Positions 28,202 to 40,086 of a stretch of DNA of 42,610 bases are shown piece by piece. This DNA comes from Plantactinospora alkalitolerans. Its GTDB lineage: Bacteria; Actinomycetota; Actinomycetes; Mycobacteriales; Micromonosporaceae. The notes under the pieces are model-generated. The model did no database searches. It saw nothing but the letters and a program-made list of their open reading frames with translations, and was not told the origin of the DNA. The stretch lies in NCBI RefSeq assembly GCF_015690345.1, contig NZ_JADPUN010000168.1, forward strand, positions 1 through 42,610. The letters are read 5' to 3'. Each line of letters begins with the position of its first letter. Position 1 is the stretch's first letter. The translations under genes were made by a program, and so were the position numbers.

Positions 28202-28450
28202 CCGGACCGTACGGCGCCAACCTCTCCGTCATGGTTCGCGGGAGACTAAGTTCCCTCAGGGAAATCAGACTGTGGCTCGCTGATGAGGGCTAGAAACCGG
28301 CTCCCTACGAGTCATCGTCTCGATCTCGGTGAATCGTGGTGCGGATCCCAACGACCGAGTGACGATCCTCAAGGCTATTGCGGAACTATTCTGCTGGTGG
28401 AGTCGAGTTACTGCCGGCCCGGCTAGGCCGGCATGCACCAGCACTGACCC
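28202..28450. other. Non-coding gap at the edge of the low-GC islet
   Basis: No gene is supported here. The gap contains a 13-bp palindrome, TTCCCT-C-AGGGAA (28251-28263), and near its right end the hairpin annotated at 28412-28433. Base composition drops visibly from here to about 30.1 kb, suggesting a boundary of transferred DNA, but no integrase or att repeat is seen. Confidence 0.5.
28412..28433 (-). terminator. Terminator of the XRE-DUF397 operon
   Basis: TGCCGGCC (28412-28419) and GGCCGGCA (28426-28433) make a perfect eight-base-pair stem with a CGGCTA loop. It begins 17 bases after the DUF397 stop in the minus direction. Confidence 0.65.
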
Positions 28451-28630
28451 TCAGCGGAGAACGCGAGCGATGAACACACGCCAGGCTGCGGGTTCGAACG
28501 CCAGCACCGGGCCGGACCGGTCCTTGCTGTCACGGACGAAGACAACCTGGGGCGGTGTGGCGACCTCGATGCAGTTGCCGCTTGATCCGGACCTGGTGCT
28601 CTTGCGCCAGGTGACGCGAGACAGGTCCAT
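28451..28630 (-). CDS. DUF397 small protein, partner of the XRE regulator
   Basis: A 59-residue DUF397 protein. It begins MDLSRVTWRKSTRSGSSGNC, the family signature (W-x-K-S-x-x-S-x3-G-x-C-V/I-E-V-A), and contains FVRDSKD and a closing AWRVFIA. In actinobacteria DUF397 genes are almost always adjacent to XRE-DUF5753 regulators, and some pairs act in development or antibiotic control, apparently as an antagonist of the regulator. Here the gene follows the XRE gene by 11 bases on the same strand. GGAGGG lies six bases upstream of its ATG at 28628-28630. It is easily missed because of its size. Confidence 0.93.
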   Translation of the reverse strand: MDLSRVTWRKSTRSGSSGNCIEVATPPQVVFVRDSKDRSGPVLAFEPAAWRVFIARVLR

Positions 28631-28641
28631 GCCGTGCCCTC

Positions 28642-29517
28642 CTAGGTGCTCAGGTCTGCCGCGACCGCACGCAGCGTATCCCGCGTGGGGTTGGGCGCCA
28701 GCGCAAGGGCTTGTAGCTGCTCGTGTGCCGCAGCGTAGGCGGCTACCTCTCCGGGCTGCTCCAGGTACAGCGCCCCTGTCAGGGTGTCAACGTAGACCAC
28801 CCGTTCCTCGACCGCATCCGGGTACGGCTCGGGCATCGGCGGGAAGTCGAGGATCACAAAGCTGCCGTCGAAGCCGACCCCGGCCGAGTAAGGCAGCAAC
28901 TGGATCTGGACGTTGCTCCGGGTTGACTCTTCGACCAGTCGGTTGAGCTGCCGCTGTAGTACCCCGGGGCCGCCGACCATTCGGCGAGCAGCGCCCTCGT
29001 CAATGACCACACGCAGCATCGGCGGATCTTCGCTCGTCAGGATGGCTTGCCGCTCCATCCGTAGCGAAACCTGTCGTTCCACCTCGCCATCCCTCATCGG
29101 GACGGGAGCACCCTCGAACGCTGCCCGTGCATACTCCTCGGTCTGCAACAGACCCGGCACCATCTGGCACTCGTACGTCCGGATGACCGATGCCTCGGAT
29201 TCCATCCCGACGTACGCGGCGAACCAGTCCGGCAGGACGTCGCTGTACCGCTGCCACCACCCACGTTGCTTGGCTTGCCGGGCCACCGTGATCACGGCTT
29301 CGGCCTGATCGCCTTTCACGCCGTAGAGCGCCAGAAGCGCCCGCACGTCGTTCGGATGTGGACGGACCTCGGCTGTCTCAATCCGGCTGAGCCAGCTCGC
29401 GTCGTGATCGACACCCCGCGCGGCTTCGGCCGACGTGATCCCTGCCCGCTCGCGGAGTTGCCGCAGGGTCAGCGCCAAGCGTCGCCGCCTGACGGTCGGG
29501 CTCTGGCGTTGAGGCAT
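28642..29517 (-). CDS. XRE-family regulator with DUF5753 domain
   Basis: A 291-residue regulator. The N-terminal helix-turn-helix (about residues 12-70, LRQLRERAGITSAEAARGV and SWLSRIETAEVRP) binds DNA. The rest is the DUF5753 domain, with WFAAYVGMESEA, PGLLQTEEYARA and the strand-rich end. The open frame extends 21 codons further, but ATG 29517 (MPQRQSPTVRRRR) fits the family. It is followed by DUF397 and preceded by a control region with two CGCATATTGCG elements. Its GC content is lower than that of neighbouring genes. It probably represses its own operon and perhaps the divergent small genes. Confidence 0.94.
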   Translation of the reverse strand: MPQRQSPTVRRRRLALTLRQLRERAGITSAEAARGVDHDASWLSRIETAEVRPHPNDVRALLALYGVKGDQAEAVITVARQAKQRGWWQRYSDVLPDWFAAYVGMESEASVIRTYECQMVPGLLQTEEYARAAFEGAPVPMRDGEVERQVSLRMERQAILTSEDPPMLRVVIDEGAARRMVGGPGVLQRQLNRLVEESTRSNVQIQLLPYSAGVGFDGSFVILDFPPMPEPYPDAVEERVVYVDTLTGALYLEQPGEVAAYAAAHEQLQALALAPNPTRDTLRAVAADLST

Positions 29518-29546
29518 GCCGCCATCTTGCCATGAAGAGTGCCGTT

Positions 29547-29600
29547 CGCATATTGCGTCCATCCCTAATGCGATCCGCATATTGCGGATTTCAATTATGC
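29547..29600. promoter_or_regulatory. Operator region with repeated CGCATATTGCG elements
   Basis: CGCATATTGCG occurs at 29547-29557 and again at 29576-29586, 29 bp apart. The second copy is embedded in TCCGCA-TAT-TGCGGA, and its left part also forms ATGCG-ATC-CGCAT (29568-29580). A further ATTATGCG follows at 29593-29600. The elements lie between the divergent XRE gene and the 58-residue gene and are the most AT-rich bases in the neighbourhood. They are probably XRE binding sites overlapping both promoters. Confidence 0.65.
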
Positions 29601-29675
29601 GTGGAACGGTGAGGGTGGATGCGGTGGTCGACCAAGGCCCAGCAACCGTGCTCCTGACCGGCGGGAGACCCAGCC

Positions 29676-29852
29676 ATGTTCTGGATCAGATGGCTCCGAC
29701 ACGAGTCCCACAGTTGGCGGACCAGGCACAGGCCGGTGTGGTCGGCCCTCCACGACCGCGTGATCTGCCTGTGCGGCGAGGACTGCCAGCCGCGACAGGG
29801 GCACGTGAAGGACTTCGAAAAGCGGGACGGTCGCTGGGTGCGGGTCCGGTGA
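29676..29852 (+). CDS. Tiny Cys-containing protein (58 residues), XRE-divergent
   Basis: A small protein I do not recognise. It starts MFWIRWLRHESHSWRTRHRP: Trp-, Arg- and His-rich and amphipathic. The middle holds a cysteine cluster, C-x-C-x3-C (ICLCGEDC), and the end is charged (KDFEKRDGRWVRVR). The three Cys and nearby His residues could bind zinc. GGGAGA at 29663-29668 with seven bases of spacing supports translation. The stop overlaps the GTG of the next gene (GTGA), so the two are coupled. It is divergent from the XRE regulator behind shared operator-like repeats. Confidence 0.7.
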   Translation: MFWIRWLRHESHSWRTRHRPVWSALHDRVICLCGEDCQPRQGHVKDFEKRDGRWVRVR

Positions 29853-30103
29853 ACCGGGTTCCGCGACCGGGGGACGTGATCGGTGTCGGGACAGGGGCCA
29901 GCGTCCAGTTCAGCGGAGGCCGGAAGCTCGTGCTGCGGGTGGTCGCGGTGGATGCCAGACCGACCTATTACGGGTTCGCCTGGGGCACGGGGTACGTCGT
30001 CGACCGGGAGGGCGCGGCCATCGACAAGCGGGACGTCTTCGTCCAGATTGCCGGACTGGTTCTGTTACAAGCCAGTCAGCGTCCCGTACCCCGCGCAACC
30101 TAG
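29849..30103 (+). CDS. Small beta-rich protein (84 residues) coupled to the 58-residue gene
   Basis: I do not recognise a family. The 84-residue product has PRPGDVIGVGTGASVQF at the start, then alternating hydrophobic residues (LVLRVVAVDA), an aromatic stretch (PTYYGFAWGTGYVVD) and RDVFVQIAGLVLL. It looks like a compact beta-barrel, similar in style to SH3-like or Tudor-like small domains. GTG 29849 overlaps the preceding stop by three bases, so translation is coupled. There is no TM helix or signal peptide. Together with the 58-residue gene it forms the right arm of the XRE islet. Confidence 0.7.
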   Translation: MNRVPRPGDVIGVGTGASVQFSGGRKLVLRVVAVDARPTYYGFAWGTGYVVDREGAAIDKRDVFVQIAGLVLLQASQRPVPRAT

Positions 30104-30220
30104 TCCTCCGGACAGCCGGGATTCCACGGCTGGCATGTCACGCATCTCCCGGTGCCGCAACCTGGAACGAGCCGGGGCGCGGGCCGCCGTCGACCGACCC
30201 TTGCCCCGGCGTCCGCCCGC

Positions 30221-34787: not shown

Positions 34788-35710
34788 ACCGGCCGCAGTA
34801 CCGGCTGAACCGGCCCCTCGACCCGGGCAGCCGGGACGACTTCCTGGCACCGAGACTGCTGGACGTGCTCGTGCCTACCCGGAACCGGCCCGCCGAACTG
34901 GCCGTCACCCTCGCCGGTCTGGCCGCTCAGCGGCAGGACGGCACCACCGGGTTCGGGGTGGTGGTCAGCGACCAGTCCGACGACGACCCCGGCTGGGCCG
35001 AACCGGCGGCGGCGGCGATGGTCCGGGTACTCCGGCACCGGGGTCATCCGGTCCTGCTCACTCGGCGGCTTCCCCGGCGCGGCCTGGCCGAACACCGCGC
35101 GTACCTGCTCGACGCCTCCGCCGCCCGGTACGTGCTCTACCTCGACGACGACGTCTGGCTCGAACCGGGCACCGTCGACCGGCTGCTCACCGCCATCCAG
35201 GAGCTGGACTGCGGCTTCGTCGGCAACGCGGTGCACGGACTGTCCTATCTCGACGACGTCCGGCCGGAGACCCACCGCCACTACGCCGAATGGCCGGGCC
35301 CGCCGAGACCGGAACTACCCCGCCCCGGCACGCCCGAGTGGGAGCGGGCGCAGATCCACTCGGCCGCCAACCTGCTGCACGTCACCGCGTCCCGTCGCCT
35401 GCCGCCGGGCCAGTGGCGGGCGTACAAGGTCTCCTGGATCGGCGGATGTGTGCTCTACGACCGGTCCCGGCTGCGCGACTCCGGAGGGTTCGACTTCTGG
35501 CACCGACTCGACCCGGGCCACCAGGGCGAGGACGTGGCCGCCCAACTCGCGGTGATGAGCCGGTACGCCGGAGCCGGGGTGCTGCCCAGCGGCGCGTACC
35601 ACCTGGAGGCACCGACCACGGTCACCGAGCGGACCGTGGAGGCCTGGGAGGCCGTGCTCGCGGACGGCCCGAGCGCTGGACCACCCACCGATCGGTCTGG
35701 GTCTGCATGA
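34784..35710 (+). CDS. Family 2 glycosyltransferase, coupled to hldE
   Basis: A 308-residue GT-A glycosyltransferase. LDVLVPTRNRPAEL opens the nucleotide-sugar domain, SDQSDDD follows, and YLDDDVWLEPG is the metal-binding DxD region near residue 125. The C-terminal part has WIGGCVLYDRSRL and GEDVAAQLAV, typical acceptor-side motifs. There are no TM helices. GTG 34784 overlaps the stop of hldE (GTGA), so it is co-translated with it. Transfer of heptose or another sugar to a surface glycan is likely; the acceptor is unknown. Confidence 0.9.
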   Translation: MNRPQYRLNRPLDPGSRDDFLAPRLLDVLVPTRNRPAELAVTLAGLAAQRQDGTTGFGVVVSDQSDDDPGWAEPAAAAMVRVLRHRGHPVLLTRRLPRRGLAEHRAYLLDASAARYVLYLDDDVWLEPGTVDRLLTAIQELDCGFVGNAVHGLSYLDDVRPETHRHYAEWPGPPRPELPRPGTPEWERAQIHSAANLLHVTASRRLPPGQWRAYKVSWIGGCVLYDRSRLRDSGGFDFWHRLDPGHQGEDVAAQLAVMSRYAGAGVLPSGAYHLEAPTTVTERTVEAWEAVLADGPSAGPPTDRSGSA

Positions 35711-35767
35711 GCAGCCGGAGCGCGAGGCTGTGCACGGCGGTCGGGGCCGGCTGGCTGGCGGCGGCGC

Positions 35768-35803
35768 GGTAGCGGTAGCGGTAGCGGTAGTGGTAGCGGT
35801 AGC
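35768..35803. repeat. Hexanucleotide tandem repeat (GGTAGC)x6
   Basis: Six consecutive GGTAGC units, the fourth being GGTAGT. It lies just beyond the glycosyltransferase stop in the 290-bp gap before the mini-eccB gene, in which I see no other gene. Slippage-prone. Confidence 0.9.
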
Positions 35804-36001
35804 GGACGAATATCGCCGCCCATTGGTAGGCGCCGGGTTGCCCGGTGGGTCTGGTCGACGCCCGGCCGGATCGGAGTCGCTGTGACTGACATCGATGGAT
35901 CCCGCCAAGCACACGACTTCGCCGGACAGGACGGAAAGCGATGAACACTCGGTATTATCGCCGTTGCCTGACGTTCGCCAACAGCGCACGGGAGTCGTCG
36001 A

Positions 36002-36283
36002 GTGTGGACGCAGAGGGATCTGATCCAGGCGTACCAGTTCCTTCGCCGACGGCTGGTGTCCGCCCTGGCTTCGGCCGACGCGGACCATCCGGTCTCGCCG
36101 TCCGGGCGACTACTGCTCGGCACCGCGCTCGGGCCGAAGTATCCGGTCGCGGGCGGTGACGTGATCCCGTCGCTCGGATACGGCCGGGTGCGTCCGTACG
36201 GCGTGCCGGCCCCGGTGCTCGCGATGTTCCCGACCGGAGCGACGCTCGATCCGGCCGAGGCGAACAGAACGACCCCGCGTTGA
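36002..36283 (+). pseudogene. eccB: Mini-EccB: N- and C-termini of EccB fused by internal deletion
   Basis: A 93-residue product. Residues 1-44 (MWTQRDLIQAYQFLRRRLVS, then a run to GTALG) match the cytoplasmic N-terminus of the type VII secretion protein EccB. Residues about 45-88 (PKYPVAGGDVIPSLGYG... to PTGATLDPAEA) match its extreme C-terminus. Roughly 400 residues, including the TM helix and the periplasmic repeats, are missing, and the junction near 36126-36134 is in frame. GGGAG at 35990-35994 lies seven bases before GTG 36002. TGA shares its A with the ATG of the kinase gene. It cannot work as normal EccB. It may be a relic kept as a leader cistron for the kinase, or a functional micro-protein. 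Confidence 0.8.
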
Positions 36284-38541
36284 TGGGGTCGGTCGAGCGG
36301 GGGCTGCTGCGGCAGGGGCTGCGCTACGCGCTCGGGCTCCGGCTCGTCGTGGTCGCCACCGCGAGTCTCGCGGCACTGCTGCTGGGCACCGCTCGGGAGC
36401 CGGTCCCGGCCACCGCGATGGTGCTGCTGATCAACGCCTGGAACGTCTACTACGCCGTCCGCACGCTGCGCGGCGCCCCCCGCTGGCTGGTTCCCGCCGA
36501 CGTGACGGTGCTGTCTGCGGTCTGCCTGCTCCAGGTCTGGCCGGCGCCCACCGACGGAGGTTCCGGGAGCACGAACTGGGTGTCGGCCGCCGCGGCGATC
36601 GCCCTGGTGACCTATCCGTGGCAACTCGGCACCCGCGCGCTCGCCGTCGCGACGATCGCGGTCATGACGGCGGACATCGGCGGCGCGGCGATCGCCGATC
36701 CGGACGGCTGGCTCGCGGGCCTGGGGCTGGCGTCCATTCCGATCCGGTTGTGGATGGTGGCGGAGGTCGCGCTCTCCTGGAGCCTCTACCGCCTGGTACG
36801 GCGCAGTGCACAGGCCGCCGACCGGCTGGTGGCGCGCGGGGAGCGGATCCGGCGGGACACCGCGGTCGCCGCGGCCCGGCGGGATGACGAACGCGAGTAC
36901 CTGGCCGCGCTGCACGACACGTCCTCGGCCACCCTGCTGATGGTCGGGGCCGGGGTGGCCGCCGGAGGCGAGCGGTGGCTCGCCGAGCAGGCGTCCCGGG
37001 ACCTCGAGGTGATCAGTGGCCCGGCGGTGGTGTCCCAACGCGAGGTCGACCTGGTCGGCATGTTGCGGGAGGTGGTCCGGCACACGCCGCTGCGGGTGCG
37101 CTGGCGGGGCCCGGCGGCGGTGCCGATGCGCGCGGTGGACGCGGTGATGTTGTCCCACGGCACCCGCGAGGCGCTCACCAACGTGGTCCGGCACGCGGAG
37201 ACCGACTCGGCCGAGGTCGCCGTCTCGGTGGTCGGCGGCGAAGCGGAAACGGTGGTGGTGGAGGTCGTCGACTCCGGTCGCGGCTTCGCCTCCGACCAGG
37301 TCTCCGAGCACCGGTACGGCGTCGCCCGTTCCATCGTGGAGCGAATGACCCGGATCGGCGGGCGTGCGACGGTCGACAGCAGCCCCGGCCGGGGCACCAC
37401 GGTACGGATGGAGTGCCCCCGTACCGCACCGGAGTCCGACGACGGGAACGTCGAGATCATCGCCACCCGGTTCCAGCGCGGCCTGCTCTGGGCGACCGTG
37501 GCCATCAACCTGGTCATCCTGCTCCTGCTCGACCTGCCGAAGCTGCTGGCCAGCCACGACGCGTACCGGTCGGTCGCCGCGCAGTACGTGGCGATGGGCG
37601 GGTTCGTGGTGCTGACGCTTGTCGTCGCCGCCGGTCTGCTGCGGCGGCGCGGGCTCGGCAGGTGGCGCTGGCCCCTGTTGGCCCTGGTGTTCGTGCTGTC
37701 CGCGGTCGCCACCGAATCGGTGCCGCCGGACCAGCGGCTCGGGTACGCGCACTGGTCGGAGGGGAACGCGGGCTGGACGGTCGTACTCCTGCTGCTCGAC
37801 ACCCGGCCGCTGATCTTCGTGGGAGTGCTCGCCGGCCACTACCTGATGACCTTCGCCCAGACGGTGCTCGGTGCGGACGCCGCGATCACGTTCGCCGCGT
37901 CGGTGAACGCGACCGTGATCGTCCTGGCCTTCCAGCTCGGGGTCGGCATGATCGCGATCGTGTTGCGCCAGCTCGCCGTCTCCTCGGCCCGGGTCGCGCG
38001 GGCGGAGGAGGAGGTGCGGACCACCGAGGCGGTCGCCGCCCAGCTGGCCCGGGACCGCCGGGAACGCTACGCGGATCTCGCGGAGACGACCGTGCCGCTG
38101 CTGTCCGGCCTGGCCAGCGGCGAGTTGGATCCCGGAGCCGAGTCGGTACGCCGGTCCTGCGCGGTCGAGGCGGCCAAGATGCGCCGGCTGTTCGCCGAGG
38201 ACGCCACCGTGCCCGATCCGCTGCTGCACGAGTTGCGGGCCTGCATCGAGCTGGCCGAGCGGAACGGGGTCTCGGTGACGTTCGCGGAGTTCGGCGAGCG
38301 CCCGACGATTCCCACCGGAGTACGGCGCAGGCTGACCGAGGCCCCGCTCTGGGCGCTGGCGACCGCCCGGGGAAAGGTACGGCTGACCGTGGTCGGCTCG
38401 GACGGGACCGTGACGGTCAGTGCCGTCACCGGCCGCCCGACGGAGATCGACCCGTTCCCCGACGGCGACGGCGTGCACACGTCCGCCACAGTGGACGGGG
38501 ACCGCCTGTGGATCCAGTCGAGTTGGCAGGGGAAGTCATGA
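36283..38541 (+). CDS. Tandem sensor kinase with degenerate second kinase half
   Basis: A 753-residue membrane protein. First half: TM helices at about residues 15-165, phosphoacceptor-like LAALHDTSSATLLMV with His211, N-box REALTNVVRHAE (Asn near 299), DSGRGF near 330 and GRGTTV, i.e. a complete HATPase. Second half: four to five more TM helices (about 400-545), a coiled helix, then a segment (about 625-720) that aligns by eye with the first ATPase but lacks the N-box Asn and the DxGxG motif. It is therefore a kinase fused to a pseudokinase, perhaps regulating itself by intramolecular pairing. ATG 36283 overlaps the mini-EccB stop; its own stop overlaps the next gene by ATGA. Confidence 0.85.
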   Translation: MGSVERGLLRQGLRYALGLRLVVVATASLAALLLGTAREPVPATAMVLLINAWNVYYAVRTLRGAPRWLVPADVTVLSAVCLLQVWPAPTDGGSGSTNWVSAAAAIALVTYPWQLGTRALAVATIAVMTADIGGAAIADPDGWLAGLGLASIPIRLWMVAEVALSWSLYRLVRRSAQAADRLVARGERIRRDTAVAAARRDDEREYLAALHDTSSATLLMVGAGVAAGGERWLAEQASRDLEVISGPAVVSQREVDLVGMLREVVRHTPLRVRWRGPAAVPMRAVDAVMLSHGTREALTNVVRHAETDSAEVAVSVVGGEAETVVVEVVDSGRGFASDQVSEHRYGVARSIVERMTRIGGRATVDSSPGRGTTVRMECPRTAPESDDGNVEIIATRFQRGLLWATVAINLVILLLLDLPKLLASHDAYRSVAAQYVAMGGFVVLTLVVAAGLLRRRGLGRWRWPLLALVFVLSAVATESVPPDQRLGYAHWSEGNAGWTVVLLLLDTRPLIFVGVLAGHYLMTFAQTVLGADAAITFAASVNATVIVLAFQLGVGMIAIVLRQLAVSSARVARAEEEVRTTEAVAAQLARDRRERYADLAETTVPLLSGLASGELDPGAESVRRSCAVEAAKMRRLFAEDATVPDPLLHELRACIELAERNGVSVTFAEFGERPTIPTGVRRRLTEAPLWALATARGKVRLTVVGSDGTVTVSAVTGRPTEIDPFPDGDGVHTSATVDGDRLWIQSSWQGKS

Positions 38542-39179
38542 TCTCGGTCGTGGTCGTTGACGATCATCCCGTGGTGATCGCGGGGGTGCGGGCCTGGTGT
38601 TCGCTCGCCGACCCGCCGATCCAGGTGCTCGATGCCGGCCCGACGGTAGCCACCGCCTGGTTGCCGCCGGGCAACGGCGCCGACGTGGTGGTGTTCGACC
38701 TGCAGCTCGATCTCACCGGCCCGGCGTACGGCGACCTGAAGCGGTTGGTTGACGCCGGCCGCCAGGTGGTCGTCTACAGCATGCGGGCGGACCGCGAGAC
38801 CGTACTGAACTGCCTGGACATCGGGGCGTTCACCTACCTGACGAAGGCGGAGGGCGAGGACCACCTGGTCGCCGCCACCCTGGCCGCCGCGCAGAACGTG
38901 CCGTACCTGCCGCCGATGCTCTCCGGCGCGTTCGGCACCGACAACCGGCCGGACCGGCCGAGGCTGTCTCCCCGGGAGACCGAGGTGCTGCTCGAATGGT
39001 TCCGCAGCGAGTCGAAGGAGATGGTCGCCAAGCGGCTGCACCTGACCGTACGCCGGGTCAACGCCTGTCTGGAGCGGGCCCGGATCAAGTACGCGAACGT
39101 CGGCCGTCCGGCGCCGACGAAGGCCGCGCTGGTCGCCCGGGCCATCCAGGACGGCCTGGTCCAGGCCGACGAGCTCTGA
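38538..39179 (+). CDS. Response regulator with atypical LuxR-like output domain
   Basis: A 213-residue regulator translated in overlap with the tandem kinase. The receiver has DD at 8-9, phosphoacceptor Asp54 (VVFDLQLD), Ser/Thr-like SMR and Lys in YLTKAEG. The output domain begins LSPRETEVLLEWFRSESKEM and ends in KRLHLTVRRVNACLERARIK. It resembles a LuxR/GerE helix-turn-helix, but with more charge than usual and without the GLSN-type loop. GGGGAAG precedes the ATG. It most likely receives phosphate from His211 of the kinase and controls genes of this locus. Confidence 0.88.
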   Translation: MISVVVVDDHPVVIAGVRAWCSLADPPIQVLDAGPTVATAWLPPGNGADVVVFDLQLDLTGPAYGDLKRLVDAGRQVVVYSMRADRETVLNCLDIGAFTYLTKAEGEDHLVAATLAAAQNVPYLPPMLSGAFGTDNRPDRPRLSPRETEVLLEWFRSESKEMVAKRLHLTVRRVNACLERARIKYANVGRPAPTKAALVARAIQDGLVQADEL

Positions 39180-39200
39180 GCCGCCGAACTCCGAGCCGAC

Positions 39201-39290
39201 GCGTTCCGAGGCAACGCGTTCCGATGCGACGCGTTCCGATGCGACGCGTTCCGAGGCAACGCGTTCTGAGGCGACGCGTTCTGAGGCGAC
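39201..39290. repeat. Six tandem 15-bp repeats (GCGTTCCGAGGCAAC-like)
   Basis: Copies start at 39201, 39216, 39231, 39246, 39261 and 39276, each GCGTTC(C/T)GA(G/T)GC(A/G)AC. A degenerate copy precedes them at 39186-39200. They fill much of the 250-bp gap between the two response regulator genes. Each junction recreates ACGCGT. They are not CRISPR: there are no unique spacers. Confidence 0.92.
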
Positions 39291-39429
39291 GGGTCGGGCG
39301 GACATCTGCCGCCGACGTGGTGGACGAACAACCATCACCGCCGCTTCCGTCCCGCCGATACGGTCGAACCGCCGAGGTTCGGACCACACGGGCGCGCTGT
39401 CCCGGGCGTGAGGTGGCAGGGGGTGCGGG

Positions 39430-40086
39430 GTGGCAGCAGGAGTCATCACGGTCGGAGTCGTCGAGGATCATCCGCTCTACCGGGTCGCCCTGGCCGGGCT
39501 GCTCGACGCGGCACCGGATTTCGTCGTGTGCACGGTCGCCGGTTCCGTCGCCGAGTTCGCCACCACCCGACGGTGCCCGCACTGCCTGGTGCTGCTGGAC
39601 ATGAGGTTGCCGGGGGTACAGGGCGCGGCGGCGGTACGCGCCGTGACCGGGCTCGGCCACCGGGTGCTGGTGCTGTCGGCCGAGACCGGCCGATCCGAGG
39701 TGCGCGGGGCGATGGCCGCCGGCGCGGCGGGCTACCTCGCCAAGAGTGCCGACGCCGACGAGATCCTCCGGGGGCTACGACAGGTCGCCGCCGGGCACCG
39801 CTACGCCTCCGCGACGCTGGCGCCGGTGCTGACCGACGACCGCGCGGGGCGCGGCGCCGGGCCCGAACTGTCCGACCGGGAGATCGACGTGCTGTCGTGG
39901 CTGGCCGCCGGGGAGCGGGACGAGGACATCGCCCGGACCCTGAAGATCAGCGTACGGACGGTGCGGTCCTATCTGGACCGGATCAGGGACAAGACCGGAC
40001 TGCGTCGGCGGTCCGCGCTCACCCGGTACGCCATCGAGCACGGCGTCGCCGACTTCGCCGCGTCCAGCCGCAGACTCTCCGCCTGA
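39430..40086 (+). CDS. NarL/LuxR-type response regulator (second)
   Basis: A 218-residue response regulator. The receiver domain has ED at residues 12-13, Asp57 in LVLLDMRLPGVQG, Ser in VLSAETG and Lys in YLAKSAD. The output domain is a normal LuxR HTH: LSDREIDVLSWLAAGERDE and ISVRTVRSYLDRI. GTG 39430 is preceded by the run GGCAGGGGGTGCGGG. It is the second regulator downstream of one tandem kinase, so it may share that kinase or use another. It is distinct in sequence from the regulator at 38538 and not a duplicate. A signal-peptide-bearing gene stub begins 15 bases after its stop. Confidence 0.93.
   Translation: MAAGVITVGVVEDHPLYRVALAGLLDAAPDFVVCTVAGSVAEFATTRRCPHCLVLLDMRLPGVQGAAAVRAVTGLGHRVLVLSAETGRSEVRGAMAAGAAGYLAKSADADEILRGLRQVAAGHRYASATLAPVLTDDRAGRGAGPELSDREIDVLSWLAAGERDEDIARTLKISVRTVRSYLDRIRDKTGLRRRSALTRYAIEHGVADFAASSRRLSA

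Follow-up and report, generated by a model that had tools for sequence, protein, structure and literature searches.

The open reading frame that stands in the place of eccB in the window, i.e., the 42,610-nucleotide stretch of Plantactinospora alkalitolerans DNA analysed here, is a remnant in a dismantled accessory ESX locus. Only the two ends of this type VII secretion gene are left, joined in one frame. The most likely reason why this frame is still open, although one held with modest confidence, is translational coupling to the adjoining sensor-kinase gene (HK), which has no Shine-Dalgarno (SD) site of its own and starts inside the eccB stop codon. In other words, this is gene decay of an ordinary sort, special only in that the stump probably does no more than help the translation of its neighbor. 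It shows the piecewise loss of an accessory type VII secretion locus with retention of the two-component pair embedded in it, and a translational overlap might determine which deletions persist. The features of the locus are collected in Table 1.

Table 1. Features of the eccB region, in window coordinates, with comparison to a genome of the same genus (G334)
Feature	Position	Strand	Comment
eccE relic (from likely eccE start codon)	35688..35892	-	largely deleted; fragments in two frames
Region between eccE relic and mini-eccB	35895..36001	+	88.7% identity to G334, 3 gap events
GGGAG, SD-like site of mini-eccB	35990..35994	+	dG -6.9; GGGAG in G334 too
mini-eccB	36002..36283	+	93 aa: EccB residues 1-44 continued, in the same frame, by the ~49 C-terminal ones; GTG start at 36002, stop at 36281-36283
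Deletion junction	36134..36135	+	1,104 bp (368 codons) of G334 (1283881-1284984) missing; blastn gap / DNA alignment
TGATG, eccB stop overlapping HK ATG (36283)	36281..36285	+	overlap also in G334
HK, 752 aa, two kinase-like halves	36283..38541	+	frame open, 88% identity to G334
RR1, response regulator directly after HK	38538..39179	+	ATGA overlap with HK; 98% identity to G334
RR2, LuxR-type response regulator	39430..40086	+	open frame intact; type following eccB in 13/14 related ESX loci
mycP stub, ~30 codons	40102..40201	+	followed, out of frame, by the final bases of eccD; edge of a 10.7-kb deletion

The two ends of EccB in one short frame

Against the Pfam profile of EccB (PF05108), mini-EccB scores 45.6 bits (cut-off 27; E 5.5e-12) in two stretches, the better of which pairs residues 41-89 with profile positions 420-467 of 474. 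The similarity is confined to the two ends, and the resemblance to EccB is far above what chance provides. G334, which served as the main reference for the locus, encodes a full-length EccB of 461 residues directly before the orthologous kinase, in syntenic position. Residues 1-44 of mini-EccB correspond to residues 1-44 of this protein with 89% identity, its C-terminal piece corresponds to residues 412-461 with 88% identity, and no gap occurs over 276 compared bases. The central observation of the sequence-only reading, namely that the N- and C-terminal ends of EccB are joined in frame and without frameshift, is thus confirmed, both by the profile search on which it had staked the EccB assignment and by the alignment to a full-length protein that it had proposed.

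That reading was also right that the transmembrane (TM) helix is missing. Specifically, mini-EccB has neither the single TM helix that follows the N-terminal tail in EccB proteins nor their periplasmic domain of several hundred residues, 368 codons being gone with respect to G334. The EccC, EccD, mycosin and WXG100 proteins that are co-encoded with EccB in G334 have likewise been lost from the window.

Origin of the deletion and state of the ESX locus

In the DNA alignment, window positions 36134/36135 correspond to G334 positions 1283880/1284985, with the deletion in frame and no clear microhomology at its breakpoints in the comparison with G334. The deleted part extends from the start of the TM segment of the orthologues to a point some 50 residues short of the C terminus, that is, it took the TM helix and nearly the whole periplasmic domain. 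Full-length EccB proteins of 453-584 residues are found in 13 further loci of relatives, picked by similarity from a search of 354 genomes of the family (G342 excluded), and the short form of the window is therefore derived.

When mini-EccB was used as query against the same 354 genomes, 293 matched at E <= 1e-5. Among the matches listed, almost all lie in frames of about 400-1,000 residues, as full-length EccB does, and those in short frames belong to the window itself (103 aa), G342 (203 aa), G248 (138 aa) and G289 (69 aa). A similar mini-gene in related genomes, for which a search had been suggested, was not seen among these listed matches. G342 carries a second and different reduction, its EccB being interrupted by a stop (TGA) shortly past the TM segment. 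Relatives broken at random positions had been named as evidence against a selected junction, and one relative does have a stop-cut EccB, at a different place. This truncated gene (G342 L061:9355-9550) is of the same ESX type; the EccD of G342 matches only residues 16-388, and its ESX locus looks decayed. In the literature, no title on a reduced EccB appeared among the matches listed, which were the smaller part of all matching papers.

The surroundings of mini-eccB have been damaged as well. In G334, eccE (PF11203, E 6e-18) is divergent from eccB, and the downstream genes encode a subtilase-type mycosin (MycP), WXG100-type proteins, a 1,367-residue EccC of the FtsK/SpoIIIE type and EccD; in the window, all of them are absent or broken. 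On the eccE side about 775 bp are missing, and the remaining 209 bases of the relic show 15 gap events against G334 with loss of the frame, similarity in the longest G334 frame reaching position 35982. On the other side, a deletion of 10.7 kb with respect to G334 runs from the mycP stub to the eccD tail and has removed eccC and the WXG100 genes, along with eccD but for its very end. RR2 has been spared (2 gap events in 615 bases versus G334); a regulator of this kind stands directly behind eccB in 13 of the 14 EccB loci outside G334, G342 being the exception.

Two further features of the region were noted. A 6-bp repeat, GCGGTA, occurs in 6.7 copies at 35766-35805 inside the eccE relic. Farther upstream, about 2 kb (28206-30219), including a regulator of the HTH_31/DUF5753 type (28642-29580), have no G334 counterpart between aligned flanking blocks.

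An error of assembly or sequencing might come to mind in a draft genome of 441 contigs. However, the locus bears several separate lesions, HK and the upstream genes are colinear with G334 on either side of the junction, and the stump bears substitutions of its own, so that an artefact of this kind is hardly credible.

Translation signals and probable coupling to the kinase gene

The pairing of start regions with the 16S tail gives -6.8 kcal/mol for the eccB start of G334, close to the value in the window, and -1.4 kcal/mol for the 20 bases upstream of HK, in the window and in G334 alike. These scores are weak evidence, as 27% of 3,000 random 20-mers drawn from the GC-rich window reach -6 and 15% reach -7. 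Consequently, the ribosome-binding site of mini-eccB, which the sequence-only reading had called good, is an SD-like element of fair rather than strong quality. Starts lacking an SD site are common in actinomycetes. The sequence between the eccE relic and mini-eccB is the probable promoter or leader of the operon. As for the overlap of stop and start with the kinase gene, it is present as had been described, and the stop codon of mini-eccB thus overlaps a downstream start devoid of an SD site, which is the arrangement expected of a coupling leader.

With the sequence of the window itself, a shifted frame read from the eccB start would end 121 or 126 nt before HK, depending on the shift. Since HK has no SD site of its own and both alternative frames stop early, a filter on the frame exerted through coupling is plausible. 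When the right-hand sequence of G334 is used instead, one shifted frame again stops 121 nt before HK, while the other continues in the HK frame down to the HK stop and would yield an EccB-HK fusion instead of an uncoupled HK, a product that might have been tolerated.

The course of events that we favor is the following. An in-frame deletion of 368 codons shortened a full-length eccB, and separate lesions wrecked eccE and removed mycP through eccD. Ribosomes would enter via the SD site of mini-eccB, terminate at its stop codon and re-initiate on HK and then on RR1. Coupling would select against deletions that break the frame, so that the start, the SD site, the frame and the stop of mini-eccB would persist. 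That coupling operates here, and that it filtered the eccB deletion, are both plausible. Accordingly, the earlier proposal of a clean deletion retained for the sake of kinase translation is the best supported of those considered, on the grounds of the SD-less HK and of the early stops in the other frames, though it is not proven.

A strong rival is a plain and recent relic, in which the junction fell in frame by luck and the stump, no longer maintained, will decay as eccE did. Indeed, about one third of random deletions are in frame, so selection is not required to obtain an open mini-eccB; the earlier argument that simple decay would lose the frame, the ribosome-binding site or the coupling was therefore too strong, even if the adjoining eccE relic did lose its frame. 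That the eccE and mycP relics were broken regardless of frame fits such a chance event. What speaks against it is that the SD site, the start, the frame, the stop overlap and the upstream region have all been kept, that the next gene has no SD site of its own, and that the 276 bp of the stump contain no indel as compared with the 15 gap events of the shorter eccE relic. The last point should be read with caution, since HK has just 6 such events over 2,256 bases, with RR2 similarly poor in them, which makes the absence of indels from mini-eccB unremarkable for a recently broken gene. All in all, a relic open by chance is a sizeable possibility, to which we give less than even weight.

The kinase and its response regulator outside the ESX context

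Orthologues of HK were found in 17 of the 354 family genomes (E <= 1e-150), and the locus was checked in 11 of the 15 genomes other than the window's and G334. RR1 adjoins the kinase at all 11 loci, with 77-82% identity; in the window its frame is open, and versus G334 it is 98.1% identical, with a dN/dS of 0.036. No EccB match was detected within the 1.5-kb flanks of HK at any of these 11 loci, and the HK-RR1 pair is therefore not dependent on ESX. Likewise, a full HK orthologue behind eccB was found in none of the 14 EccB loci outside G334, three of which have short partial HK matches several kb off. From this distribution we infer that HK-RR1 is an independent module and that it took up its place downstream of eccB in the common ancestor of the window and G334.

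The kinase orthologues with no eccB nearby were also scored for SD pairing, at plus-strand loci only, so that 6 of the 11 gave candidate starts and 5 gave none. The scores at the candidate starts are mostly weak (-1.7 to -6.2), and no clear contrast between kinases with and without eccB upstream emerges from these 6 of 11 loci.

HK is an unusual kinase in two parts, and its partner RR1 is strongly conserved. A single Pfam HATPase_c match is located in the first half of HK, and the halves correspond to two separate adjacent frames in G335. Between RR1 and RR2, at 39190-39291, lies a 15-bp tandem repeat, TCCGAGGCGACGCGT, in 6.8 copies.

Selection on the remaining residues

The pairwise dN/dS between mini-eccB and G334 is 0.21. 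This value, whose determination had been suggested as a check, looks like purifying selection, yet it does not distinguish constraint on the stump from a recent deletion: the G334 branch and the part of the window branch that precedes the deletion were both full-length genes, and the ratio is hence evidence neither way. In a branch model, omega of the window branch is 0.21 at its optimum (lnL -1482.99); fixing it at 1 gives an lnL of -1483.13, and one common omega of 0.075 gives -1483.50. The model has no power to separate the background value of 0.07, 0.21 and 1. For a plain relic, it counts that an omega of 1 lies just 0.14 lnL units below the optimum.

In the same direction, two positions have changed in the stump. 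Position 7 is Q in 13 of 14 aligned EccB proteins, R in G334 and L in mini-EccB; position 35 is R in 13 of 14, K in G334 and G in mini-EccB. The G334 protein also departs from the other EccB proteins, at positions 5 and 7.

A possible function for the short protein

In a third explanation, the 93-residue protein itself would be functional, for example as a cytosolic N-tail peptide that binds EccD or EccC and tunes the remaining ESX system. In the structures of ESX-3 and ESX-5 (PMC6986878, PMC8131196), the EccB N-tail touches the EccD and EccC of a neighboring protomer, and this tail is retained in the stump. In addition, AlphaFold2 predicts one longer helix at residues 4-28, and the dN/dS given above is as low as that of a constrained protein, without proving constraint. 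On the other hand, the remainder of the model is a low-confidence chain (mean pLDDT 56, pTM 0.31), and the C-terminal piece has been torn from a periplasmic fold.

The possible partners are a further difficulty. At the cut-offs used, the genome of the window, a draft that is 96% complete, encodes a single further copy each of EccB (contig C416), EccC and EccD (both C402), with 36%, 53% and 34% identity, respectively, to the G334 proteins. The remaining EccB is full-length, and its N-terminus matches mini-EccB at an E value of only 0.2. Because the cognate EccD and EccC are gone and the remaining ones are so distant from those lost, the titration of EccB partners, which the sequence-only reading had offered as an example of what the protein might do, is unlikely; with MycP and most of EccE deleted as well, that suggestion found no support. 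More generally, we consider a functional peptide very improbable. Slightly more remote still is the specific idea of a selected microprotein that docks on the remaining EccD and EccC and restrains ESX assembly. If true, it would represent an old secretion gene turned regulator and translated together with a two-component system.

Comparison with known systems

With EccB, the core membrane protein of ESX (type VIIa) systems described by PF05108, mini-EccB shares the cytosolic N-tail, the last ~49 residues and the place of eccB in an ESX locus. It differs in its length, 93 residues against about 460, in having neither the TM helix nor the periplasmic repeats, and in the deletion of its partner genes from the locus. 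With decay remnants that carry an in-frame internal deletion, it shares a full-length syntenic orthologue in the sister genome and several lesions in the locus; mini-eccB departs from them in that its frame, provided with an SD site, is still open and overlaps an intact kinase gene. Finally, it resembles those upstream open reading frames that act by translational coupling, with a stop that overlaps the start of a downstream gene devoid of an SD site, except that here the putative leader is a cut-down secretion gene. Mini-eccB reveals no new system.
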